A stretch of 64,000 nt of DNA from Streptomyces sp. NRRL WC-3742 (GTDB lineage Bacteria; Actinomycetota; Actinomycetes; Streptomycetales; Streptomycetaceae). The position numbers were made by a program, and so were the translations under genes. The stretch's first letter is position 1, and each line of letters starts with the position of its first letter. Positions 25,815-36,518 of this stretch are shown here, piece by piece. The notes beneath the pieces were generated by a model, which was given only the letters and a program-made list of their open reading frames with translations, was not told where the DNA came from and did not search any database. The stretch lies in contig NZ_JOCF01000044.1 of the NCBI RefSeq assembly GCF_000720635.1, forward strand, positions 1-64,000. Direction: 5' to 3'.

Positions 25815-26438
25815 CTAGGCGCCGAGCATGCGGAGCACCAACTCGCCGTAGCGGCGGCCGAGTTCCTCCGGGGTCTCGCTGGAGCGGTCGGTGTACCAGC
25901 GGGAGACGTCGATGCCCAGGGACGTCACGGCTCTCGCCGCCGTGCGCACCTCGGCGACCTGGAAGGCGCCCGAGGCCGCGCCCTCCTCGATCAGGCCGCT
26001 GACCTCGCGCTCGATGTCGAGGCGCAGCGCCGCGACGACCGCGTACGCGTCCTCGGGCAGCGCGTGCAGCTCGTAGTTGACCACCCGGCCGACCGTGCGG
26101 GCCCGGGCGTGCCAGGCGGTGAACTGCTCGACCAGGTGCCGCATCCGCTCCGCCGGGCCGCCCTCGGCGGAGGCCGCCGCCCGGACCAGGGAGAGGGTGG
26201 CGGCGTGGCCGGCCTGGCTGATCTCGGCGAGCAGGGCGGCCTTGGACTGGTAGTGGATGTAGAGCGCCGCCGGGCTCATTCCGGCGGCGGTGGCGATGTC
26301 GCGGGTGGTGGTGGCGTGGAAGCCGCGTTCGGCGAAGGACTCGACGGCGGCCTGGAGCAGCCGGTGCGCGGCCTCGGGGCGGGCGTCGGCACCACCGGAG
26401 AGGGTGGGCCAGAGGTCGGCGATCGGCGTGCTGGTCAT
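25815..26438 (-). CDS. TetR-family regulator, likely autoregulator of the SDR and kinase/ACAD operons
   Basis: A 207-residue TetR regulator. The helix-turn-helix is AAVESFAERGFHATTTRDIATAAGMSPAALYIHYQSKAALL (about residues 28-70), and the C-terminal ligand domain is all-helical. The ATG at 26438 has GGAGGA seven bases upstream. It is divergent from the SDR-SDR-oxidoreductase operon. The 22-bp site between them recurs before the kinase/acyl-CoA dehydrogenase operon at 36.4 kb, so this protein probably represses both and may sense an acyl-CoA. Regulation is inferred from the shared site. Confidence 0.88.
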   Translation of the reverse strand: MTSTPIADLWPTLSGGADARPEAAHRLLQAAVESFAERGFHATTTRDIATAAGMSPAALYIHYQSKAALLAEISQAGHAATLSLVRAAASAEGGPAERMRHLVEQFTAWHARARTVGRVVNYELHALPEDAYAVVAALRLDIEREVSGLIEEGAASGAFQVAEVRTAARAVTSLGIDVSRWYTDRSSETPEELGRRYGELVLRMLGA

Positions 26439-26520
26439 GGCGCCATCCTCCCAGAAGACTCGTACAGGCGTTCCCCCTCTGCTCACCCGGGGGCTGTTGA
26501 CAGGTTCCCTCACCGACACC

Positions 26521-26542
26521 ATGCTGAGCAAGCGCTTAGTCA
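26521..26542. promoter_or_regulatory. Candidate TetR operator, copy 1
   Basis: The 22-bp site contains the palindrome AAGCGCTT (core GAGCAAGCGCTTAGTC) between the divergent TetR and SDR genes, 53 bases before the SDR start. It is identical at 21 of 22 positions to the reverse complement of 36465-36486. Confidence 0.75.
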
Positions 26543-26594
26543 CCCTCGAACGGGTGGCCGTTCCCCCCTCCACGCGCGAAAGGCAGGACCCTCC

Positions 26595-27353
26595 GTGGTG
26601 CACTCCTTCAAGGGCCGGGTGGCCGTCGTCACCGGATCGAGCCGGGGCATCGGCCTCGGCATCGCCCGCGAGCTGGTCGCCCGGGGAGGGAAGGTGTGCC
26701 TGACCGCCCGCAACCCCGAGCCGCTCGCCGAGGCCGTACGGGACCTCGGCGGACCGGAGTGCGCGATCGCCGTCGCGGGCAAGGCCGACGACCCGGCCCA
26801 CCAGGAGGAGGCCGTCGCCCGCACCCTGGAGGCGTTCGGGCGCCTCGACCACCTGGTGAACAACACCGGCATCAACCCGGTCTACGGCCCGATCCTCACC
26901 ACCGACGAGGACGCGGCCGCCAAGATCCTCGCCGTCAACGTCCTCGCCCCGCTGGCCTGGACCCGCCGCGTCCACGCCGCGTGGATGGGCGAGCACGGCG
27001 GCTCGATCGTCAACGTGGCCTCCGTCGCGGGCATCCGCTCCTCGCTCGGGATCGGCATGTACGGCGTCAGCAAGGCCGCCCTGATCCGGCTGACCACCGA
27101 ACTCGCCGCCGAACTGGGCCCGCAGGGCATCCGGGTCAACGCCGTCGCCCCGGCCGTGGTGAAGACGAAGTTCGCCGAGGCCCTGTACGAGGGCCGCGAG
27201 GAGAAGGTCGCCGCCGCGTACCCGCTGGGGCGCCTCGGCCTGCCGTCGGACGTGGCGGGCGCCGTCGCCTTCCTGCTCTCCGAGGACGCGGGCTGGGTCA
27301 CCGGCCAGACCGTCGTCCTGGACGGCGGGATCACCCTCGGCGGCGGACTGTGA
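26595..27353 (+). CDS. SDR-family oxidoreductase (FabG-like)
   Basis: A 252-residue classical short-chain dehydrogenase. TGSSRGIGLGIA binds NAD(P); NNTGINP follows; the catalytic set is Ser in IVNVASVAG and YGVSK (MYGVSKAALI). The end GQTVVLDGGITLGGGL is the usual C-terminus. The GTG start at 26595 has GCAGGA six bases upstream. It is the first gene of a three-gene operon whose members overlap by four bases each. It probably oxidises a 3-hydroxyacyl-CoA or reduces a keto group; the candidate TetR operator lies 53 bases upstream. Confidence 0.9.
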   Translation: MVHSFKGRVAVVTGSSRGIGLGIARELVARGGKVCLTARNPEPLAEAVRDLGGPECAIAVAGKADDPAHQEEAVARTLEAFGRLDHLVNNTGINPVYGPILTTDEDAAAKILAVNVLAPLAWTRRVHAAWMGEHGGSIVNVASVAGIRSSLGIGMYGVSKAALIRLTTELAAELGPQGIRVNAVAPAVVKTKFAEALYEGREEKVAAAYPLGRLGLPSDVAGAVAFLLSEDAGWVTGQTVVLDGGITLGGGL

Positions 27354-28132
27354 CCGGGTTCGCGGACCAGGGCGTGGTGGTGACCGGCGCCGGTCGCGGC
27401 ATCGGCGCCGCCCTCGCCCGCGCCTTCGCCGCCGCCGGAGCCCGCGTCGTGGTCAACGACCTGGACGCGGAGGCCGCGCACGCCGTCGCCTCCGCCTGCG
27501 GAGGCACCGCGGTTCCCGGCGACGCCGCCACCGCCGAGGGCCTGGCCGCCCTCGTCGACCGGGCCCGCGCCGACCTCGGCGAGATCGACCTCTGGTGCGC
27601 CAACGCGGGCGTCGCCCCGGCCGGCGGGGCCGACGCCCCGCCCTCGGTGTGGGCGAGCGCCTGGGAGGTCAACGTCCTCGCCCACGTCCGCGCCGCCGAA
27701 CTCCTCCTCCCCCGCTGGCTCGAACGCGGCGAAGGCCGGTACCTGTCCACCGTCTCCGCCGCCGGACTGCTCACCATGCTCGGCTCGGCCCCCTACGCCG
27801 TCACCAAGCACGGCGCACTCGCCTTCGCCGAGTGGCTCTCCGCGACCTACCGCCACCGGGGCCTGCGCGTCCACGCGCTCTGCCCGCAGGGCGTGCGCAC
27901 CGACCTCCTCGCCTCCACCGGCGCCGTCGGCGAGGCGCTCCTCGCACCCGGCGCGATCTCGCCGGAGGAGGTCGCGGAGGCCGCGCTCGCCGGAATCCTG
28001 GAGGAGCGGTTCCTGATCCTGCCCCACCCCGAGGTCGCCGAGTACCAGCGCGTACGGGCCGTCGACCCGGACCGCTGGCTGGCCGGCATGAACCGACTGC
28101 AGCAGGGCCTGGAGAAGGGCGGCGCACTGTGA
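27350..28132 (+). CDS. Second SDR-family oxidoreductase
   Basis: A 260-residue classical SDR. TGAGRGIGAALARAF is the nucleotide-binding motif, DLDAEAA after beta-2 suggests NAD preference, CANAGVAP follows, and the active site is YAVTK (APYAVTKHGALAF). It starts with a GTG overlapping the previous stop (GTGA), so the two are translationally coupled. Its C-terminus (RFLILPHPEVAEYQRVRAVD) resembles SDRs found with acyl-CoA dehydrogenase genes. Substrate unknown. Confidence 0.9.
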   Translation: MTGFADQGVVVTGAGRGIGAALARAFAAAGARVVVNDLDAEAAHAVASACGGTAVPGDAATAEGLAALVDRARADLGEIDLWCANAGVAPAGGADAPPSVWASAWEVNVLAHVRAAELLLPRWLERGEGRYLSTVSAAGLLTMLGSAPYAVTKHGALAFAEWLSATYRHRGLRVHALCPQGVRTDLLASTGAVGEALLAPGAISPEEVAEAALAGILEERFLILPHPEVAEYQRVRAVDPDRWLAGMNRLQQGLEKGGAL

Positions 28133-29103
28133 GGGCCTGGCAGGCACACCGGCTCGGCGAGCCCGCCGAGGTCATGCGGCTGGCCGACGACACTCCCCAA
28201 CCGGAGCCCGGCCCCGGGCAGTTGCTCGTCCGCGTCCGCGCAGCCGCCGTCAACTTCCCCGACGCGCTGATGCTGCGCGGCCACTACCAGGTGCGCCCGC
28301 CCCTGCCGTTCACCCCCGGCGTGGAACTGTGCGGCGAGGTCGCCGCCGGCCCCCGCGGCGGCGAACGCCTCATCGGCACCCCGGTCCTGCCGCACGGAGC
28401 CTTCGCCGAGTACGCGCTCCTGGACGCCGCCACCGCGTTCCCCGCTCCCCCGGCGCTGGACGACGCCGAGGCGGCGGCACTGCACATCGGCTACCAGACG
28501 GCCTGGTTCGCCCTCCACCGCCGCGCCCGGCTGCAACCGGGCGAGACACTGCTGGTGCACGCCGCCGCCGGCGGGGTCGGCAGCGCGGCCGTCCAGCTCG
28601 GCCGGGCGGCCGGGGCGCGGGTGATCGCCGTCGTCGGCGGACCGGAGAAGGCCGATGCCGCCCGCGCGCTCGGCGCCGACCTGGTGGTGGACCGCAGGAC
28701 CGAGGACTTCGTCACCGCCGTCAAGCAGGCGACGGACGGCCACGGCGCGGACGTGGTCTTCGACCCGGTCGGCGGCGACGCCTACACCGGCTCCACGAAG
28801 TGCGTCGCCTTCGAGGGCCGCATCGTGGTCGTCGGCTTCGCCGCCGGCCAGATCCCGGCCCCCGCCCTCAACCACGCACTCGTCAAGAACTACTCCATCC
28901 TGGGCCTCCACTGGGGCCTCTACAACACCCGCGACCCCCACGCCGTCCACGCCGCCCACGAGAAGCTGACCGAACTCGCCGAGACGGGCGTCGTCCGCCC
29001 CCTGGTCAGCGCCCGACTCCCGCTCGCCGACGCCGCCGAGGCGGTCCAGCGGGTCGCGGACGGCCGCTCCACCGGCCGCCTCGTCGTCCTCACCGACCGG
29101 TAG
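28129..29103 (+). CDS. NADPH:quinone oxidoreductase-type MDR protein
   Basis: A 324-residue zinc-free medium-chain dehydrogenase. It begins VRAWQAHRLGEPAEV, has AAAVNFPDALMLRGHYQ and TPGVELCGEVAAG in the catalytic domain, and AAAGGVGSAAVQLGRAAGARVIA as the NADPH motif. No structural-zinc cysteine cluster is seen. It starts with a GTG overlapping the upstream stop by four bases, third gene of the SDR-SDR-MDR operon. Likely an enoyl/quinone reductase in the same catabolic route. Confidence 0.9.
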   Translation: MRAWQAHRLGEPAEVMRLADDTPQPEPGPGQLLVRVRAAAVNFPDALMLRGHYQVRPPLPFTPGVELCGEVAAGPRGGERLIGTPVLPHGAFAEYALLDAATAFPAPPALDDAEAAALHIGYQTAWFALHRRARLQPGETLLVHAAAGGVGSAAVQLGRAAGARVIAVVGGPEKADAARALGADLVVDRRTEDFVTAVKQATDGHGADVVFDPVGGDAYTGSTKCVAFEGRIVVVGFAAGQIPAPALNHALVKNYSILGLHWGLYNTRDPHAVHAAHEKLTELAETGVVRPLVSARLPLADAAEAVQRVADGRSTGRLVVLTDR

Positions 29104-29142
29104 GCACTCTCCGCCGACACCCGGCGGTCGGGGGCCGGCCGG

Positions 29143-29454
29143 TCAGGCGAGTGCCGCGCGGGCCAGGGCGCACAGCTCGGTCCGGTCGTCGATCGCCTGC
29201 GCCGGGGCACTGTAGTAGGCGTGCACCACGACCGTACGGCCCGCGGCGTGGTAGGTGAACGGCGTGGACCCGGCACTCTCGTACGAGGAGCGGGCCTCGC
29301 CGTCGACGCGGAGGTAGAGGGTGTCCATGACGATCGCGAACTGGATGCCGTGGCAGCGCAGTGCCCAGCCACCGAAGTAGCGGTGGAGGGTGACCTCGCC
29401 GAGCGGCGCCAGTTGATCGGCGACGTACTCGGCGAGGCTGCGGGATCCGCTCAC
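29143..29454 (-). CDS. TfoX N-terminal-domain protein
   Basis: A 103-residue protein matching the TfoX_N fold: LAEYVADQLAPLGEVTLHRYFGGWALRCHG, then FAIVMDTLYLRVD, FTYHAAGR and a YYSAPAQAIDD.TELCALARAAL ending. In Streptomyces these small proteins are of unknown role; the natural-competence function of full TfoX need not apply. The GTG at 29454 overlaps the preceding stop (GTGA). Last gene of the TetR-SnoaL-TfoX operon. Confidence 0.85.
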   Translation of the reverse strand: MSGSRSLAEYVADQLAPLGEVTLHRYFGGWALRCHGIQFAIVMDTLYLRVDGEARSSYESAGSTPFTYHAAGRTVVVHAYYSAPAQAIDDRTELCALARAALA

Positions 29455-29795
29455 GCCGGGAAGAACCCGGTGATGTCGGCGAGCCGGCCGTCGCGGTGGA
29501 GTGCGGTGCTGACACCCGCCACGGCGGGTTCGTCCTGCTCGCCGAGCTGGGTCCACCGCGCGAGCGACCGGTCGTGGTGCTCGAGCACCTCGTCGATGCG
29601 GAACCGGTGACCGGGGAAGGCTTCGGCGAATCCGGCCATGTAGGCGGCCAGCTCGGTCAGCCCGCCCACCTCCGTGCCCGGGTCCCGGTAGGCGACGTCC
29701 TCGACCGCCACCGTGCGGAGGGCGGCGAGCCGCTCGCCGGGGTCGGCCGACCAGCACGCGGCGTAGTCCGTCCAGAGCTGCTGTGAGTCACTCAT
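29451..29795 (-). CDS. SnoaL/NTF2-like protein
   Basis: A 114-residue protein with the NTF2-like fold. It starts MSDSQQLWTDYAACWSADP, has VEDVAYRDPGTEVGGLTELAAYMAGFAEAFPGHRF and ends with the DGRLADITGFFPA strand. SnoaL-like proteins are small ligand-binding or isomerase/hydrolase proteins. Its ATG overlaps the stop of the upstream TetR gene (ATGA) and its stop overlaps the TfoX-like start, so the three are coupled. Substrate not identifiable. Confidence 0.88.
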   Translation of the reverse strand: MSDSQQLWTDYAACWSADPGERLAALRTVAVEDVAYRDPGTEVGGLTELAAYMAGFAEAFPGHRFRIDEVLEHHDRSLARWTQLGEQDEPAVAGVSTALHRDGRLADITGFFPA

Positions 29796-30388
29796 CGCTG
29801 TCCCTCTTTCGCGGAGCCGATCGACGCCATCGCGCCATCGGTGACGGTGTGCAGTTTCGTGCGGGGCGTGCCGGCTCTGACCAGCACGAGCAGGCCCTGG
29901 TAGAGCGCCAGCAGCCGGGCCGCCGACACCTCGACGTCCAGGTCCGCCGACAGCAGGCCCAGCGCGCGGGCGCGTGTCAGGGCGTCGGCGAAGCCGGACT
30001 CGATCACGTCCAGCCCTCGGCGCACTCCGGCGGCGGCCTGCGGAACGGTGAAGGACTCCACCGCGGTGTTGGTGAGCAGACAGCCCGGATCGGGATCGAG
30101 GCCCGTCTCGAACGCCGAGGTGAAGAACGACCTGATACCCGCCACGGGGTCTGTCGGTTCCAGGAGATGGGCCTGGACCCGACCCCGCACCACCTGGTCG
30201 TTGTAGGCGTCCAGGGCGGCGCGGAACAGGCCGTCCTTGCTCTCGAAGACCCGGTACAGGCTGCCCGGGTGCAGCCCGGTCGCCTCCTCGATGTCCCGCA
30301 CCGATGCCCCGAGGTAGCCCCGGTGGCGGAACAGTCGCATGGCGGAGGCCAGGACCTCTGCCTGGTCCCAGAGCTGTCTGCGGCCCAC
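29792..30388 (-). CDS. TetR-family regulator of the SnoaL-TfoX operon
   Basis: A 198-residue TetR regulator. The HTH is MRLFRHRGYLGASVRDIEEATGLHPGSLYRVFESKDGLF, and the helix GCLLTNTAVE in the ligand domain is typical of the AcrR-like C-terminal type (TetR_C_16 group). The GTG at 30388 has CGGAGGT five bases upstream. It heads a coupled three-gene operon and is probably autoregulatory; the AT-rich stretch with GTTGAACGGTTGCTC just upstream could hold its operator. It is divergent from the ADP-ribosylglycohydrolase gene. Confidence 0.88.
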   Translation of the reverse strand: MGRRQLWDQAEVLASAMRLFRHRGYLGASVRDIEEATGLHPGSLYRVFESKDGLFRAALDAYNDQVVRGRVQAHLLEPTDPVAGIRSFFTSAFETGLDPDPGCLLTNTAVESFTVPQAAAGVRRGLDVIESGFADALTRARALGLLSADLDVEVSAARLLALYQGLLVLVRAGTPRTKLHTVTDGAMASIGSAKEGQR

Positions 30389-30548
30389 CCGGCACCTCCG
30401 TAGTTGAACGGTTGCTCACAAAAATAGCACGCCTGCGCGACGCTCCTGATCAAGCTCGGGGCAGGCCCGGCGACAACGGCCCAGGGAGAGGCCGAGGGAG
30501 ACCGAAACCCGGGTGCGGGCATGAGGCGGGGGCTGTCAGGATGCCCGC

Positions 30549-31487
30549 ATGACACCGCTCGCCGCTGCTCGGGACTCGTTGGAAGGTTTGGCTCTGGGGG
30601 ACGGGTTCGGGGAGCGGTGGTTCCCGTTGTTCCGGTCGCCGCAGAAGGCGTTCCGGGAGATCAGGGCGCGGCGGGTGCCCGTCGAGGCCGTGTGGCACTG
30701 GACGGACGACACCGCGATGGCACTGTCCGTCTTCGGGGTGATCGCCACGTACGACGCGGTGCACCAGGAGCGGCTGGCCGAGGCGTTCGGCAGGTCCTAC
30801 GTGAGGGACTCCGCCCGGGGGTACGGGCACGGGATGCACCTGCTGCTGCCCGAGCTCGCGGAGGAGCCGGGGAGTTGGCGCGCCCGCGCGCGGGCGCTGT
30901 TCGACGGGCAGGGGAGCCTGGGCAACGGCGCCGCGATGCGAGTCGCGCCGTTGGGTGCCTGGTTCTGCGGCGACCTGGAGGAGGTCGCCGAACAGGCCGC
31001 GCTCTCGGCGGAGGTCACCCACGCCCACCCGGAGGCGATCGCCGGCGCGGTGGCCGTGGCCCTCGCGGCGGCGCTGGCCGCGCGCGGGCGGGCGCAACCG
31101 GAGCCGGAGGGCGGCGAGTTGCTCGCCCAGGTGGCCGACCTCACCGCACCCGGCCGCGTCCGGGACGGGCTGCGGCGGGCGGCCGAGGTGCCCGGCGACA
31201 CCGAGCCGTGGCGGGCGGCGGACCTGCTCGGGAACGGGCAGCGGATCTCGGCGGCCGACACCGTGCCGTTCGCCCTCTGGTCGGCCGCACACCACCTGGA
31301 CAGCCTCACCGACGCCCTGTGGACCACCGCCGAGGGCCTTGGCGATGTGGACACCACCTGCGCGATCACGGGCGGCGTGGTCGCCTCCCGCACAGGACTG
31401 GCGGAAGTACCCGGCGACTGGCTCTACCTGCGCGAGCCCCTGCCCGACTGGGTCGGCGAGCTGGCCGAGGAGTCGGCCGACGGATGA
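30549..31487 (+). CDS. ADP-ribosylglycohydrolase-family protein
   Basis: A 312-residue protein of the DraG/ARH family, which removes ADP-ribose from proteins or small molecules using two metal ions. The diagnostic motifs are all present in order: LALGDGFGERW, HWTDDTAMALS (metal-binding Thr-Asp-Asp), GSLGNGAAMRVAP, THAHPEAIAGAVAVALA and GDVDTTCAITGGVVA (DxDTxxA). The start follows AGGA at a spacing of eight. No ADP-ribosyltransferase is seen in the window, so the substrate is unclear. Confidence 0.9.
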   Translation: MTPLAAARDSLEGLALGDGFGERWFPLFRSPQKAFREIRARRVPVEAVWHWTDDTAMALSVFGVIATYDAVHQERLAEAFGRSYVRDSARGYGHGMHLLLPELAEEPGSWRARARALFDGQGSLGNGAAMRVAPLGAWFCGDLEEVAEQAALSAEVTHAHPEAIAGAVAVALAAALAARGRAQPEPEGGELLAQVADLTAPGRVRDGLRRAAEVPGDTEPWRAADLLGNGQRISAADTVPFALWSAAHHLDSLTDALWTTAEGLGDVDTTCAITGGVVASRTGLAEVPGDWLYLREPLPDWVGELAEESADG

Positions 31488-31531
31488 CGAGTCGGTCGAC
31501 GGATAGCGAGTCGGATGAATCGGATGATCGG

Positions 31532-32155
31532 TCAGGAGTTGCGCTTCACCGACTCGTTCTCCTGGGCCAGTCGCCGCAGCGCCAGCAGGGCCGGCTCGAG
31601 CAGGACGGTGCGCACCAGGGCGCTCTCCGCCTGGGCGAGCGGGTCGGCCGCCGGGTCGAGTTGGTCGAGGTCGATGGCGGCGAGTTGGGCGGCGGCGGCG
31701 GCGTAGCCGAGGAGGGCCGGGTGGGCGATCTCCTCGCCGAGGGAGCGCAGAGTCTCGAGGGCTTCACCGAGGACGGCGCGGGCGGGGGCGTGTTCGGAGA
31801 CCTCCCAGCCGAGTTCGGCGAGCAGCGCGTCGACCTCGGCGGCGCCGGGTGCGGGTTCGGGGGCGGGTTCGGCGTCCTCGTCGGCGGGGCGGGCGCCGAG
31901 GACGATGCCGAGCACCTGGTGCTGTTCGCCCTCGTGGGCGGCGATGCCGCCGAGGACCTCCTTGGTGGCGCTGACGCTGAGGCCGCGCATGCCGATGAGG
32001 GCGCGGACCAGGCCGAGGCGGCGCAGGTGGGTCTCGTCGTACTCGGCCTGGGTGGTGGCGATGGCCCGGCCGGGGGGCAGCAGGCCCTCCCGCAGGTAGT
32101 ACTTGATGGTCGCGGTCGGGACTCCGCTGCGGCGGCTCAGCTCGGACATGCGCAC
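31532..32155 (-). CDS. MerR-family regulator
   Basis: A 207-residue regulator. The N-terminal winged HTH is VRMSELSRRSGVPTATIKYYLREGLLPPG, followed by the second helix pair YDETHLRRLGLVRALIGMRGL and an extended Ala/Glu-rich C-terminal domain. The GTG at 32155 is chosen, with AGGAA nearby; the ATG at 32149 is possible. It is divergent from a small ABM-like protein, with an inverted repeat between them. A tandem 12-base repeat (CGGTCCGGTCCT, about 2.5 copies from 32180) lies upstream of the start. Confidence 0.88.
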   Translation of the reverse strand: MRMSELSRRSGVPTATIKYYLREGLLPPGRAIATTQAEYDETHLRRLGLVRALIGMRGLSVSATKEVLGGIAAHEGEQHQVLGIVLGARPADEDAEPAPEPAPGAAEVDALLAELGWEVSEHAPARAVLGEALETLRSLGEEIAHPALLGYAAAAAQLAAIDLDQLDPAADPLAQAESALVRTVLLEPALLALRRLAQENESVKRNS

Positions 32156-32248
32156 GGCTGCTCGGTTCCTCCTGGCTCGCGGTCCGGTCCTCGGTCCGGT
32201 CCTCGGTCGGACGCGCGACTGGCGTCTGGATACCAGCACTGTCTAACA

Positions 32249-32267
32249 TAGATAGCGGCACTATCCA
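32249..32267. promoter_or_regulatory. Candidate MerR operator
   Basis: TAGATAG, five bases, CTATCCA pair at six of seven positions, and an outer CACTG/CAGTG pair extends the dyad (32237-32270). It lies between the divergent MerR and ABM-like genes, as MerR operators usually do. Confidence 0.5.
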
Positions 32268-32310
32268 GTGTCGTCCGTCCGCCGACCAGGCGTCGACGAG
32301 GAGTACAGCC

Positions 32311-32730
32311 ATGCCCACCCTGCCCTGGATCACCCCGAACCCGACCACCCCCGGCACCGAGGCCGTCGTGATGGCCTCCCGCTTCGAGGTCCGTTCCCTC
32401 GCCGACGTACCGCGCTTCTTCCTCAAGGCCATGGCCGTCTGGAAGCAGCTGCACAGCACGCCCGGCGTCGTCGGCGCCTCGCTGGTCGCCCGGCCCCTGA
32501 AGCGGACCTTCTACACCCTGTCCGCCTGGGAGAGCCGCGAGGCCCTGAACGCCTTCGCCGCCGCCGAGCCCCACCGCACCGTGATGACCGGGCTGCGCAG
32601 CACCACCAAGGAGTCCACCTTCACGTTCTGGCAAGCCCCCGTCGACCGGCTGCCCATCGCCTGGCCCGACGCGCAGCGCCGGATCGAGGAGCAGCGCCAG
32701 GCCGGCAAGGCCCCTGGTCAGGGCTCGTAG
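32311..32730 (+). CDS. Dimeric alpha-beta-barrel (ABM/DUF3291-like) protein
   Basis: A 139-residue protein resembling antibiotic-biosynthesis-monooxygenase-like barrels: VVMASRFEVRSLADVPRFFLKAMAVWKQL, VVGASLVARPLKRTFYTLSAWESREALNAF and FWQAPVDRLPIAWPDAQRRIE. The RBS GAGGAG lies seven bases upstream. It is divergent from the MerR gene and probably its main target. Substrate unknown. Its 3' end overlaps the convergent hydrolase by 13 bases. Confidence 0.75.
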   Translation: MPTLPWITPNPTTPGTEAVVMASRFEVRSLADVPRFFLKAMAVWKQLHSTPGVVGASLVARPLKRTFYTLSAWESREALNAFAAAEPHRTVMTGLRSTTKESTFTFWQAPVDRLPIAWPDAQRRIEEQRQAGKAPGQGS

Positions 32731-34010
32731 ACCATCTCCGGGAACCTCGCCGAGGGCCCGTCCAGCAGGTGGTCGTCATGGCCGCGCAACCAGCGGTCGA
32801 GGAAGCTGGCGACGTACGTCCGGGTGGCGAGCACCGCCCGGTCGGACCGGATGTCCCCGACGGCTTCGCGTACCGCCTGCGTGCCGATCGCGCCCTGGCC
32901 GGCGAGCTGCGGCAGCAGGGACTCGGCGTCGGTGTACGAGCCGTGGCGGGAGCCGTCGAGGGTGAAGTCGGCGTGCCAGCCGGTGCTGTGGCGCCACAGG
33001 GCGTCCCAGCCGGGCTGCTGCCCGTAGGGGCCGGAGTCGCCGTTGCGGGTGCCGAGCAGCAGGAACGGCCGGTCCAGGCCCTTCTCGGCGACGTCGGTGA
33101 GGAAGACGCCGGTCCTGCCGTCGGGGCCGGGGAAGTGCAGTTGCCCGTCCATGTTGACGGCGGCGGCGATCCTGGGGTCGTCGTGCATCACCTGGAGGGC
33201 GGCGGAGCCGCCGCCGGAGTGGCCGACCGTGGCGATCCGGTCCAGGTCGAGGGCGGCGCCGACGCCGGGCGGCAGGGTGCGGGAGTGCTTGAGGTGCGCC
33301 AGCTCGTCGAGGACGAACCTGGTGTCGGCGACCCGGGTGGCGAGCATCTTGCGCAGCAGCGCGCCGATGTCGAGGTCCGGCTTCTCCAGCTCCGGGAACA
33401 CCGAGGCGGCCAGCTCACCGCTGGGGAGGGAGACTTCGGACGCCTCCCAGGTGTGGTCGACGGTCACCACCACGTAACCGCGCGAGGCCAGGTCCTCGAC
33501 CAGGCCCGTACCCCAGGTGCGCGGGTCCCCCAGGCCCGCCGAGTACAGCACCACGGGCCTGGCCCGGCCGGGCAGGGCGGGCGCGTCGGCCCGGGCATGG
33601 GTGCGCACGTTCGACCAGTCGGTGCGGCCGGGCTCGAAGCCGTAGTTGCGCTGGCCGACGCTTCCGGCGCTGCCGAAGTGCGCCGCCGCCCCGGGGGTCA
33701 TGTACGGCGCGCGGTCGTCGCCGAGCGCCGGGCGGCTGGTCGGGTACCACAGGCTGATCATCAGCTCACGGGGCCGCCCGGGCTTCCACGGGTCCTCCCG
33801 GTCCCGGTCGACCAGGTGCACGCTGGTGGTGCCGACCGCGTACGGGCCGGTGGGCGCCGGAAGTGCCGCCCTCGCCTGCTTGTCGACCGCCCCCCGTGCC
33901 GGGGCGGCCTGGGCCGCCGGAGCCGCCACCGCGCCGGGCGCCCCCGCCGCCCCGAGCACCACCGCTGCCGCCAGTACCACCGTCGCCACCGCCCGTCCCC
34001 GCGTGCCCAT
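32718..34010 (-). CDS. Secreted alpha/beta-hydrolase, PAF-acetylhydrolase/lipase-like
   Basis: A 430-residue exported hydrolase. It begins with a Sec signal (MGTRGRAVATVVLAAAVVLG, cleavage near AQAAP). The core reads LPAPTGPYAVGTTSVHLVDRDREDPW, LMISLWYPTSRP, VVLYSAGLGDPRTW, the nucleophile elbow GHSGGGSAALQ, and AVNMDGQLHFPG near the acid residue. It is the PAF-acetylhydrolase-II-like lipase type. A paralogue with the same architecture lies at 44178-45350. An inverted repeat (34085-34128) lies upstream. Substrate unknown; ester or phospholipid hydrolysis is likely. Confidence 0.82.
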   Translation of the reverse strand: MGTRGRAVATVVLAAAVVLGAAGAPGAVAAPAAQAAPARGAVDKQARAALPAPTGPYAVGTTSVHLVDRDREDPWKPGRPRELMISLWYPTSRPALGDDRAPYMTPGAAAHFGSAGSVGQRNYGFEPGRTDWSNVRTHARADAPALPGRARPVVLYSAGLGDPRTWGTGLVEDLASRGYVVVTVDHTWEASEVSLPSGELAASVFPELEKPDLDIGALLRKMLATRVADTRFVLDELAHLKHSRTLPPGVGAALDLDRIATVGHSGGGSAALQVMHDDPRIAAAVNMDGQLHFPGPDGRTGVFLTDVAEKGLDRPFLLLGTRNGDSGPYGQQPGWDALWRHSTGWHADFTLDGSRHGSYTDAESLLPQLAGQGAIGTQAVREAVGDIRSDRAVLATRTYVASFLDRWLRGHDDHLLDGPSARFPEMVYEP

Positions 34011-34084
34011 CGTCCGTCCCCTTTGCGCTCGTCACCCCGTTGTCGGTACGGGTGAGACGGTACGGGCGGGGCGGGGGCACGGCC

Positions 34085-34128
34085 GTCATACCGGGGGGCC
34101 AACTCGCCGATGGATACCCCGGTATGAC
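34085..34128. repeat. 12-bp inverted repeat between ACAD stop and hydrolase start
   Basis: GTCATACCGGGG (34085-34096) and CCCCGGTATGAC (34117-34128) pair perfectly around 20 bases. It could terminate the kinase-ACAD operon, or act as an operator 75 bases upstream of the secreted hydrolase. Confidence 0.55.
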
Positions 34129-34146
34129 AGGACTACGGACAGATAG

Positions 34147-34177
34147 CCAGACGGACGTACAACCAGACGGACGTACA
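34147..34177. repeat. Tandem 15-bp direct repeat with 16-base period
   Basis: CCAGACGGACGTACA occurs at 34147-34161 and 34163-34177, just after the acyl-CoA dehydrogenase stop. A related AGACGGACG-like start precedes it. Function unknown. Confidence 0.5.
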
Positions 34178-34195
34178 GCCGTACGGGCGTACTCG

Positions 34196-35407
34196 CTACT
34201 GGTACTTCCGCAGCTCCCGGCGGGCGAGGGAGCGCTTGTGCACCTCGTCCGGGCCGTCCGCGAGGCGCAGGGTGCGCATGCCCGCCCAGAGGTGGGCGAG
34301 CGGGGTGTCCTGGCTGACGCCGGCGGCGCCGTGGGCCTGGACGGCCTTGTCGAGGATCCACTCGACGGTGCGCGGGGTGGCGATCTTGATCGCCTGGATC
34401 TCGGTGTGCGCGCCCCGGTTGCCGACGGTGTCCATCAGCCAGGCCGTCTTGAGCACCAGCAGCCGCAACTGCTCGATCCTGACCCGGGATTCGGCCACCC
34501 AGTCCTGGATCACCCCCTGCGCGGCGAGGGGCCGGCCGAAGGCCACCCGCTCGTTCGCCCGGCGGCACATCGCCTCCAGGGCGCGTTCGGCGATGCCGAT
34601 GGCGCGCATGCAGTGGTGGATGCGGCCGGGGCCGAGGCGGGCCTGGGCGATGGCGAAGCCGCCGCCCTCCTCGCCGACCAGGTTGGCGGCGGGGACGCGG
34701 ACGTCCTCGAAGAGGAGTTCGGCGTGGCCGCCGTGGTCGGCGTCGTCGTAGCCGAAGACCGTCATGCCGCGCTTGACGGTGAGGCCGGGGGTGTCGCGCG
34801 GGACGAGCACCATGCTCTGCTGGCGGTGGGCTTCGGCCGACGGGTCGGTCTTGCCCATGACGATGATCAGCTTGCAGTCGGGGTTCATCGCGCCGGTGAT
34901 GTAGAACTTGCGGCCGTTGATGACGTAGTCGTCGCCGTCGCGAACGATCCGGGTCTCGACGTTGGTCGCGTCGGAGGAGGCGACCTCCGGCTCGGTCATC
35001 GCGAAGGCGGAGCGGATCTCTGCCTCCAACAGCGGCCGCAGCCACCGCTCGTGCTGCTCGGGGGTGCCGAACTGGGCGAGCAGCTCCATGTTCCCGGTGT
35101 CGGGGGCGGCGCAGTTCAGGGCGGGCGGGGCGAGTTGGGGGCTGCGTCCGGTGATCTCGGCGAGCGGGGCGTACTGGAGGTTGGTGAGGCCCGCGCCCTG
35201 TTCACCGGGGAGGAAGAGGTTCCACAGGTGCCGCTTGCGGGCCTCGGCCCGGAGGTCGGCGACGACGGGCGGGACGGACCAGGGCTCGCGGGCCGGGTCG
35301 GCGAGCTGCTCGGCGAGGACGGGCTCGGCGGGGTACACGAACTCGTCCATGAACGCGAGGAGTTGCTCGCGCAGTTCGGTGGTGCGGGCGTCGTAGGCGA
35401 AGTCCAT
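34196..35407 (-). CDS. Acyl-CoA dehydrogenase (ACAD10/11-like)
   Basis: A 403-residue acyl-CoA dehydrogenase. It starts MDFAYDARTTELREQLLAF and has the motifs FAMTEPEVASSDATN (flavin/substrate), GRKFYITGAMNPDCKLIIVMGK, and QTLGPGRIHHCMRAIG-like LGPGRIHHCMRAIG, then a C-terminal dimer domain with AGVSQDTPLAHLWAGMRTLRLADGPDEVH. That pattern is found in ACAD10/11-like enzymes. The ATG overlaps the kinase stop by one base (TGATG), implying coupling. In mammals and in the bacterial Lva pathway such enzymes act on phosphorylated 4-hydroxyacyl-CoA. Operator copy 2 lies before its partner gene. Confidence 0.88.
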   Translation of the reverse strand: MDFAYDARTTELREQLLAFMDEFVYPAEPVLAEQLADPAREPWSVPPVVADLRAEARKRHLWNLFLPGEQGAGLTNLQYAPLAEITGRSPQLAPPALNCAAPDTGNMELLAQFGTPEQHERWLRPLLEAEIRSAFAMTEPEVASSDATNVETRIVRDGDDYVINGRKFYITGAMNPDCKLIIVMGKTDPSAEAHRQQSMVLVPRDTPGLTVKRGMTVFGYDDADHGGHAELLFEDVRVPAANLVGEEGGGFAIAQARLGPGRIHHCMRAIGIAERALEAMCRRANERVAFGRPLAAQGVIQDWVAESRVRIEQLRLLVLKTAWLMDTVGNRGAHTEIQAIKIATPRTVEWILDKAVQAHGAAGVSQDTPLAHLWAGMRTLRLADGPDEVHKRSLARRELRKYQ

Positions 35408-36435
35408 CAGTGCTCCTTGAGGGTGCTGAGGCCGTGCCGGGCGAGGATCGGGGGCATCTCGGCCGCGCGCTCGAAGCCGGCGCCCAGGGTGCGGCCCTGC
35501 TGGAAGCGGAAGTGGATGCCCTCGGCGACGACGGCGAGCTTGAAGGAGGCGAAGGCGACGTACCAGTCCAGGTCGGCGGCCTGACGGCCCGTCAACCGGG
35601 CGTAGTACGCGACGATTTCGTCCGCCTTCGGGAAGCCTGGGGCCGTCGCGGCGTAGGGGATGATGCCGCCGCCGACACCGGCGAGTTCGGTGTACATCAC
35701 CAACAGGCCGACGTCGGTGAGCGGGTCGCCGAGGGTGGACATCTCCCAGTCGAGGACGGCGGCGATCTCGTCGTCCCCGCCCACCAGGACGTTGTCCAGC
35801 CGGTAGTCCCCGTGGACGAGGGCGGGCGCCGGCGAGACGGGCAGCCGCTCGGCGAGCAGGGCGTGCAGCCGGTCCACCTCGGGCAGTTCGCGGCTGCGGG
35901 AGGCTTCGAGCTGCTTCGACCAGCGGCGCAGCTGGCGCTCCAGGTACCCGTCCGGGCGTCCGAAGTCGGCCAGGCCGACGGCGGCCGGGTCGATCCGGTG
36001 CAGGGCGGCGAGGGTCTCGACCAGCCGCAGGCCGAGGGCGTGGACGCGCTCCTCGCCGAGGGCGGCGAGGGGGGCGACCTCGCGGTGGGCGATGCCGGTG
36101 ACGAACTCCATGAGGTACCAGGGCGCGCCGAGCACGTCCGTGCCGGGGTCGATCAGCAGCGTGCGCGGGACGGGCACGTCCGTGCCGCCGAGCGCCGTCA
36201 TGACGCGGTACTCGCGGCCCATGTCGTGGGCGGTGGCGAGCACGTGCCCGAGCGGCGGGCGCCGGAGCACCCAGCGGCTCGCGTCATCCGTGAGCACGTA
36301 GGTGAGGTTCGACCGCCCGCCCTCGATCAGCTCCGCCCGCAGCTCGCCCCGCACTCCCCCGGGCAGTTCCCGCGCCAGGAACGGGCGCAGCAGATCGAGG
36401 TCCAGGCCGGGCGGGTCGGCGGGTGTGTCGGTCAT
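35407..36435 (-). CDS. Phosphotransferase-family (APH-like) kinase paired with ACAD
   Basis: A 342-residue cytoplasmic APH/choline-kinase-fold kinase. It starts MTDTPADPPGLDLDLLRP, has VLRRPPLGHVLATAHDMGRE (nucleotide-loop Lys region), LVHGDYRLDNVLV (catalytic HGDxxxxN) and AAVLDWEMSTLGDPLTDVG (metal-binding DxE). This is the kinase half seen in human ACAD10/11 and in bacterial LvaA-like proteins, which phosphorylate 4-hydroxyacyl-CoA. It heads a two-gene operon with ACAD, and the TetR operator copy 2 lies 30 bases upstream of its start. Role in hydroxy-acyl-CoA catabolism is inferred. Confidence 0.85.
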   Translation of the reverse strand: MTDTPADPPGLDLDLLRPFLARELPGGVRGELRAELIEGGRSNLTYVLTDDASRWVLRRPPLGHVLATAHDMGREYRVMTALGGTDVPVPRTLLIDPGTDVLGAPWYLMEFVTGIAHREVAPLAALGEERVHALGLRLVETLAALHRIDPAAVGLADFGRPDGYLERQLRRWSKQLEASRSRELPEVDRLHALLAERLPVSPAPALVHGDYRLDNVLVGGDDEIAAVLDWEMSTLGDPLTDVGLLVMYTELAGVGGGIIPYAATAPGFPKADEIVAYYARLTGRQAADLDWYVAFASFKLAVVAEGIHFRFQQGRTLGAGFERAAEMPPILARHGLSTLKEH

Positions 36436-36464
36436 CGGGCGGCTCCTCGGACGTGGGGCGTCGT

Positions 36465-36486
36465 TGACTAAGCGCTTGCTTAGCAT
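36465..36486. promoter_or_regulatory. Candidate TetR operator, copy 2
   Basis: The 22-bp site TGACTAAGCGCTTGCTTAG plus CAT lies 30 bases upstream of the kinase start. It is inverted relative to, and 21/22 identical to, the site at 26521-26542. The core is palindromic (CTAAGCGCTTGCTTAG). Binding by the TetR of 25815-26438 is inferred. Confidence 0.75.
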
Positions 36487-36518
36487 TCAGCCGCAGGCCG
36501 CCCCCTGTCAATACACGG

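Follow-up and report, generated by a model that had tools for sequence, protein, structure and literature searches.

The window examined here, a stretch of 64,000 nucleotides from an actinomycete genome deposited as Streptomyces sp. NRRL WC-3742 (contig NZ_JOCF01000044.1, positions 1 to 64,000), contains a gene for a TetR-family regulator and two gene clusters that are each preceded by a nearly identical palindromic site. The regulator (25815..26438, minus strand; 207 amino acids (aa)) is encoded divergently from three plus-strand genes, namely those for two short-chain dehydrogenases/reductases, SDR1 (26595..27353, 252 aa, the GTG at 26595 being our choice of start) and SDR2 (27350..28132, 260 aa), and for a medium-chain dehydrogenase/reductase (MDR; 28129..29103, 324 aa); SDR1 and SDR2, and likewise SDR2 and MDR, overlap by 4 bp. 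The second cluster, on the minus strand, comprises a gene for an APH-type kinase (35407..36435, 342 aa) and, overlapping it by 1 bp, a gene for an acyl-CoA dehydrogenase (ACAD) of the ACAD10/11 type (34196..35407, 403 aa).

The shared site and its promoters

Site 1 (26521-26542, plus strand; ATGCTGAGCAAGCGCTTAGTCA) is located between the divergent TetR and SDR1 genes, 82 bp from the start of the former and 52 bp from that of the latter, and site 2 (36465-36486, minus strand; reverse complement ATGCTAAGCAAGCGCTTAGTCA) is located upstream of the kinase gene. As the original prediction from the sequence had it, the two are inverted copies with 21 of 22 bases identical, and site 2, placed there some 30 bases upstream of the kinase, ends 29 bp before its ATG (36435). 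The match is indeed unlikely to have arisen by chance: no other place in the window matches with three or fewer mismatches, nor does any of 100 dinucleotide shuffles. The palindromic AAGCGCTT is present in both sites, as claimed, and two copies of it are also reached in 2 of 100 shuffles. The predicted operators are 16 bp long and lie inside these sites, operator 1 (CTGAGCAAGCGCTTAG) at 26524..26539 on the plus strand and operator 2 (CTAAGCAAGCGCTTAG) at 36468..36483 on the minus strand.

A search of the 8.74-Mb genome (233 contigs) with the 18-mer CTNAGCAAGCGCTTAGTC, allowing up to two mismatches, yielded three places: the two window sites, both exact, and a third with one mismatch (G000:C8:42813-42830) before another MDR gene. 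The backwards control of the same 18-mer has two matches at this threshold, so that two-mismatch matches by themselves mean little and the third site needed other evidence. The exact 16-mer CTRAGCGNNYGCTYAG likewise has three matches in the genome, namely operator 1, operator 2 and the third site, all in predicted promoters, and many unrelated copies were not found. The picture of two linked loci thus proves incomplete, a third, unlinked target on another contig having been missed.

The gene on contig C8 starts with TTG 41 bp after the site and encodes a CurA/alkenal-reductase-like MDR of 339 aa. Its matches in the Protein Data Bank (PDB) include 4b7c (427.1 bits) and 5zxn (325.1 bits), the latter of which we take to be CurA, as well as 2-alkenal and prostaglandin reductases; a CurA-type activity is predicted from this likeness. 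An orthologue (77% identity or more) is found in 26 of the 37 genomes of the genus, the site (up to one mismatch) precedes it in all 26, and no site was found before such a gene in the 11 genomes that lack it. In one of the latter (G003, L117), a one-mismatch site precedes a different MDR gene, the product of which is 35% identical to the window MDR and could be a replacement target. A CurA paralogue on contig C45 of the window genome (G000:C45, 46% identity) was rejected as a target because no site turned up on this contig in the genome-wide pattern searches.

In the two window operons, the operator follows a TTGACA sequence, the probable -35 box, which is located 21 bp before it in the SDR1 promoter (26497..26502, plus strand) and 22 bp before it in the kinase-ACAD promoter (36506..36511, minus strand). 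In relatives, TTGACA precedes the operator by 21 bp at 35 of 35 SDR1 sites and by 21-22 bp at 34 of 36 APH sites (a count that includes two contigs of G006); of the two exceptions, L068 has no TTGACA and L079 has it farther away. At this spacing the operator covers the expected -10 region and would overlap both promoters, which are themselves recognized from the sequence alone. The CurA sites are in reversed orientation compared with the SDR1 and APH promoters, and TTGACA was found before none of 27 (two adjacent sites in G005 included), so that the CurA promoter appears to be built differently.

Conservation of the operator and its regulator

The nearest named relatives of the TetR protein (L004-L022, 73-94% identity) come from Kitasatospora species and from strains deposited as Streptomyces, which suggests that the genus of the window is Kitasatospora. 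The 18-mer is found at up to one mismatch in 36 of 37 genomes of this genus (own genome included) and in one of 24 outside it, with one match for the control sequence in all 61 genomes; in the sole outside genome (G051), none of ten query genes matched in the 4.2 kb retrieved for comparison. A relative of the TetR (E value of 1e-30 or better) is present in exactly the same 36 genomes, each of which has one site before SDR1, beside the TetR gene, and one before the APH-ACAD operon. The two sites lie on one contig in 33 genomes (on separate contigs in assemblies G006, G013 and G031), at distances of about 3 to 16 kb that vary with the intervening genes. SDR2 and MDR are absent from 3 of the 36 loci (G018, G021 and G030) and therefore look accessory. 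In the remaining genome, G016, the TetR (1e-30), the sites, the CurA-like reductase (1e-60), the kinase (1e-30) and SDR1 (1e-60) were all not found at the cut-offs given.

The exact 16-mer is represented in ten relatives by 29 distinct sites (controls total 4 matches), of which 10 precede SDR1, 10 APH and 7 CurA, and the other two belong to G029, where a second TetR copy lies at most 6 kb away. This copy (L195, 61% identity) has a counterpart in G015 (L196, 57%), where near-identical sites again lie no more than about 6 kb away, one of them directly before an open reading frame starting with MPEAVIVATARSPIGRAFK, presumably a thiolase-like start. A joint duplication of regulator and operator may have taken place in these two genomes. 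A different kind of multiplication is seen in G005, with 53 matches to CTRAGCRAGCGCTCAG (up to one mismatch; one match for the control), three of which are the regulon's own sites and about 50 dispersed copies. Some of these form tandem rows with a 33- or 37-bp period (L093:3466-3664, G005:C3:2295439-2295564), and one lies just behind the TetR gene; this density, suggestive of a repeat or decoy-like array, was not met in the other genomes of the 61-genome search.

Outside the genus, the scan covered 37 loci with TetR relatives of 43-63% identity, in each case the 360 bp upstream of the aligned TetR region. Of the loci, 31 come from the 74 TetR-bearing genomes, other than the own one, in a sample of 345 genomes of the class, and one and five from two other TetR searches; 14 belong to a single genus of the same family (g15, probably Streptomyces) and hence are not independent. 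The 37 are part of the loci found, those left out being L004, L020-L022, L195 and L196 (same genus or paralogues), L254-L262 (which repeat a genome) and relatives below 120 bits. With up to one mismatch allowed in its ten fixed bases, the dyad TAAGC-N4-GCTTA is found upstream of 32 of the 37 relatives, namely 14 of 14 in g15 and 18 of 23 elsewhere, compared with a mean of 0.035 and a maximum of 1 in 200 shuffles. Of the 37 segments, 14 contain an exact AAGCGCTT, which was rejected as the recognized core. The earlier designation of it as such was not borne out, the element conserved between genera being the dyad TRAGCGNNYGCTYA (in most cases preceded by C), the centre of which is 2 bp off that of AAGCGCTT. 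Column counts over 31 loci give C-TRAGCGNNYGCTYA, with two variable central positions and a following base that is split between G and C.

The layout of these distant loci also bears on the origin of the arrangement in the window. A single operator lies between the TetR gene and a divergent, co-directional SDR1-(SDR2)-APH-ACAD run in L238 and L268-L273, seven genomes from two other families (in L268, no SDR2 match was found in the run). A further family of the order, with three genomes (L192-L194), has one dyad before SDR1 and another before APH, with TetR between. The one-operon layout suggests that the window shows a split version, the direction (split or fusion) being read from these layouts and not from a tree. 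Within the class sample, the kinase is found in 69 of the 75 TetR-bearing genomes vs 127 of the 270 without TetR (Fisher p 1.3e-13, in a test that treats non-independent genomes). These tallies score few candidates per genome, which makes their absences weaker than those of the TetR in the same-genus search and of kinase and SDR1 in G016 and G285. The latter is the sole g15 genome of the sample without TetR, and kinase and SDR1 were not found in it at the G016 cut-offs.

The regulator consists of an N-terminal TetR helix-turn-helix domain (Pfam TetR_N, 67.1 bits) and a ligand-type C-terminal domain (TetR_C_24, 91.1 bits), and its recognition-helix segment, GMSPAALYIHY, is identical in 34 of 36 loci of the genus and mostly GMSPAA(L/V)Y(I/V)H, with some exceptions, in distant ones. 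Joint control of the SDR1 and kinase-ACAD loci by this one TetR, as originally proposed, is strongly supported by the joint presence and joint loss across the 37 genomes, the recurrence of the dyad in other genera and the runs served by one operator; the proposal thus probably stands, short of the third target. The two window sites and the third site would very probably all be binding sites of this one repressor, in charge of a few enzymes that degrade hydroxylated fatty acids.

Enzymes and predicted chemistry

The assignment of the kinase and the ACAD to the ACAD10/11-LvaA/LvaC kind, part of the original prediction, agrees with their signature residues. The ACAD (LvaC-like) scores 430-433 bits against ACAD11 structures (433 bits for 2wbi) compared with 152.1 bits against the highest-scoring ordinary ACAD. 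The available parts of one study of ACAD11 name D753 as the catalytic residue, R626, H634 and R637 as those acting on the 4-phosphate, and R631 in addition (PMC12440821); the window protein aligns identical residues with the last four (ARLGPGRIHHCMR) and has the catalytic base in LRLADGPDEVH (positions counted by hand, with a one-residue offset set by D220). The motif RxGPGRxHHxMR occurs in 66 of 66 such ACADs from the loci retrieved, a set in which some genomes are represented more than once (L004 and L021 are examples). LADGPDEVH proved too strict as a pattern, the misses listed, up to five per set, reflecting conservative changes (IADG, FADG or DEAH) or an early end of the match.

The kinase (Pfam APH, 180.8 bits; LvaA- or ACAD10/11-kinase-domain-like) has its best PDB matches in 9o56, an 'aminoglycoside phosphotransferase' (207.4 bits), and 3dxp, a 'putative acyl-CoA dehydrogenase' (185.6 bits), both scoring above ACAD11 itself (8v3v, 157.6 bits). 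Aligned to ACAD11, it has D220 and N225 (HGDYRLDN) as well as the substrate arginines R86 and R176 (GREYRV, YLERQ). HGD(Y/F)(R/K)xDN is found in 67 of 67 kinases, and strict patterns for the two arginine contexts match 38 and 45 of them. In the mammalian enzymes, the 4-hydroxyacyl-CoA is phosphorylated and the phosphate then eliminated to give an enoyl-CoA, as described in the accessible portion of PMC11342911; this function was published in 2024 and 2025 (PMC11342911, PMC12440821). That kinase and ACAD perform 4-hydroxyacyl-CoA chemistry in the window as well is supported by the conserved residues.

SDR1 (Pfam adh_short_C2, 195.6 bits) has as its closest solved structures the DHRS4 carbonyl reductases (5ojg, 172.4 bits), found in a PDB search at 1e-36; the search at 1e-50 gave no match. 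SDR2 (Pfam adh_short) matches the (3R)-hydroxyacyl-CoA dehydrogenase 2et6 (108.9 bits), and MDR (Pfam ADH_zinc_N) resembles quinone oxidoreductases of the PIG3 type, with 229.3 bits to the probable oxidoreductase 4eye and 226 bits to TIGR02824, below the cut-off of 296.8. Among the NCBIfam matches listed for TetR, SDR1, SDR2, MDR, ACAD and APH there is no equivalog above its cut-off, and SDR1 passes one subfamily model, NF005559. The suggestion that the SDRs and MDR oxidise the products of the kinase and ACAD found no support. In the levulinate (Lva) pathway of Pseudomonas putida, the SDR LvaD reduces levulinyl-CoA, a 4-oxoacyl-CoA, before the kinase step (PMC6692424 and PMC9399607, in the parts available), and by analogy the SDRs are more likely to act reductively, ahead of the kinase.

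The proposed regulon and its alternatives

With a probability of about 0.8, these observations are explained by the TetR at 25815-26438 being the local repressor of a three-promoter regulon for 4-hydroxyacyl-CoA catabolism, of which the window holds a split operon. A TetR dimer would bind palindromes of the form CTRAGCGNNYGCTYAG and, at the SDR1-SDR2-MDR and kinase-ACAD promoters, occupy the place expected for the -10 region, 21-22 bp after TTGACA, with a third, reversed palindrome before the CurA/2-alkenal-reductase-like MDR gene, and an acyl-CoA of the pathway would release it. Judging from the signature residues, the kinase would phosphorylate a 4-hydroxyacyl-CoA at its 4-hydroxyl, and elimination of the phosphate by the ACAD10/11-type enzyme would give a 2-enoyl-CoA for beta-oxidation; one or both SDRs would most likely make or interconvert 4-hydroxy and 4-oxo acyl-CoAs, as LvaD does, and the MDRs may reduce enones or enals. 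The operon itself appears to have been split, given that two other families have SDR1-SDR2-APH-ACAD behind a single operator copy beside TetR.

Several observations weigh against this interpretation. In its own genome the consensus has, at up to one mismatch, 14 matches vs 21 for the backwards control, and a wider regulon built on such looser matches was rejected on the same counts. Five of the 37 distant TetR relatives lack the upstream dyad (L190, with two mismatches, and L226, L236, L240 and L242, with three or four), including the 60%-identical L226, and the exact 16-mer is found in just 14 of the 37 segments because the last base varies. Of the 196 kinase-bearing genomes of the class sample, 127 have no TetR at the cut-off used. 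Furthermore, in the 14 g15 loci (L254-L267), no dyad was found within two mismatches before the kinase, and no gene has SDR1 as its best match apart from one in L266, at 34% identity; in the one annotated locus of this genus, a dyad is located beyond the 3′ end of the TetR gene, between genes for a MaoC dehydratase and a MerR protein (L254:4542-5584), which suggests different targets in g15. With the dyads of g15 placed elsewhere than at the kinase, the list of targets is not fixed, and its membership shifts between lineages.

Of the competing explanations, the least unlikely is that the TetR responds to, and regulates, some other acyl-CoA pathway, for side chains that are branched, cyclic or aromatic, with the kinase-ACAD pair as an accessory branch. 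The g15 dyads before TetR itself and by the MaoC dehydratase gene fit this explanation, as do the varying target sets, including the loss of SDR2 and MDR from three loci. It is opposed by the APH-ACAD operon following a site in all 36 TetR-bearing genomes of the genus, by the kinase accompanying TetR in 69 of 75 genomes of the class and, in g15 itself, by a distance of only 4.3-18.2 kb between TetR and kinase in all 28 genomes, of 31, that have both on one contig.

It is distinctly improbable that the operators are real but bound by a TetR other than the adjacent one, with operators of the KstR2/AtuR class. Such a reading draws on the resemblance of the sites to known operators: AGCAAGCGCTTAGT, present in both window sites, fits by inspection the KstR2 motif AnCAAGnnCTTGnT, as given in the part of PMC3068626 available, at all fixed positions but one, and the AtuR/RdmA sites AGCAAGCGCTTGG reported in the accessible part of PMC9973270 are likewise similar. 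What speaks for the adjacent TetR, the one TetR of the genome examined in this respect, is that 36 genomes have site and gene alike and G016 has neither, that the palindrome stands beside its own TetR gene in 36 of 36 genomes of the genus and 32 of 37 outside it, and that the recognition-helix segment is maintained along with them; moreover, the two central positions of the cross-genus dyad vary, and its centre lies 2 bp off that of the CAAGnnCTTG dyad.

Least probable is that a duplication placed the same promoter before both operons and thereby gave rise to the two sites, without present joint regulation, as might be argued from the nearly equal TTGACA distances (21 and 22 bp), which resemble a copied promoter block, and from the conservation of SDR1 promoters around this box as well, given that 15 of 16 operator positions are invariant in both the SDR1 and the APH set (selected at up to one mismatch, a threshold every TetR-bearing genome passes) whereas most flanking positions vary in the APH set, and that the reversed CurA site is kept in all 26 genomes with the gene and lacks TTGACA in 27 of 27 cases.

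The predicted repressor-controlled 4-hydroxyacyl-CoA regulon is a new one of a familiar kind, and its CurA-like third target is new. Like the Lva pathway of P. putida (kinase LvaA, ACAD LvaC, SDR LvaD), it combines a kinase gene adjoining an ACAD10/11-type ACAD gene with an SDR; this comparison is based on published residues and not on sequences, the residues here matching those given for ACAD10/11 and, in the case of the ACAD, LvaC in the available part of PMC12440821. Full identity with the Lva system was rejected because regulator and ligase differ: a TetR takes the place of LvaR, described in the parts available of PMC6692424 and PMC9399607 as a sigma54 sensory-box activator, and the genes behind the three sites (SDR1-SDR2-MDR, APH-ACAD and the CurA-type MDR), arranged as two operons and an unlinked reductase gene, include no acyl-CoA synthetase LvaE. 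Mammalian ACAD10 and ACAD11 contain the same two domains (433 bits to ACAD11 for the ACAD and 157.6 for the kinase), which are here separate polypeptides encoded by adjacent genes in an operon under a predicted repressor. KstR2 and AtuR/RdmA, too, are TetR-type regulators of catabolic genes with palindromic operators of the AAGC..GCTT type (PMC3068626, PMC9973270, portions available), and KstR2 likewise has three sites (PMC3068626, same portion), with different genes and a different dyad centre. A KstR2 orthologue was ruled out as the regulator, the TetR scoring 42 bits to KstR2 structures vs 137.4 bits to 3him. In the literature search, no paper among those listed describes, judging by title or opening of the abstract, this regulon or a link of CurA to a regulon of TetR and ACAD10/11, and the operator letters and 4-hydroxyacyl-CoA together with Streptomyces were not found, a weak negative given that most subscription papers lay outside the search.

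Levulinate is one among many candidate substrates, and the third target, being enal/enone-reductase-like, points to substrates beyond it. A much more tentative extension, which we consider doubtful as a whole, is that the regulon corresponds, in bacteria, to the pathway by which mammals deal with lipid-peroxidation products: a CurA-type enal/enone reductase, DHRS4-type carbonyl reductases and the ACAD10/11 pair under an acyl-CoA-sensing repressor would be dedicated to 4-hydroxy-2-alkenals, 4-oxo acids or gamma-lactones, an ancestral operon having been split with operator copies kept and an unlinked reductase gene recruited through the same operator. A predicted repressor with a defined operator and three target promoters in tractable soil bacteria makes inducer and substrate class directly testable, and the locus appears to be a clear example of operon splitting in which co-regulation persisted.

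Several other genes lie in or next to the interval between the two operons. A PAF-acetylhydrolase-like (lipase-type) gene at 32718-34010 adjoins the ACAD gene; it keeps this position in just some genomes of the genus and has no separate site. Between the operons are a second TetR-family gene with a different C-terminal domain (29792-30388), directly followed by a SnoaL-like gene (29451-29795), and an ADP-ribosylglycohydrolase gene (30549-31487), which is found likewise in the loci of three relatives (L055, L062 and L066).

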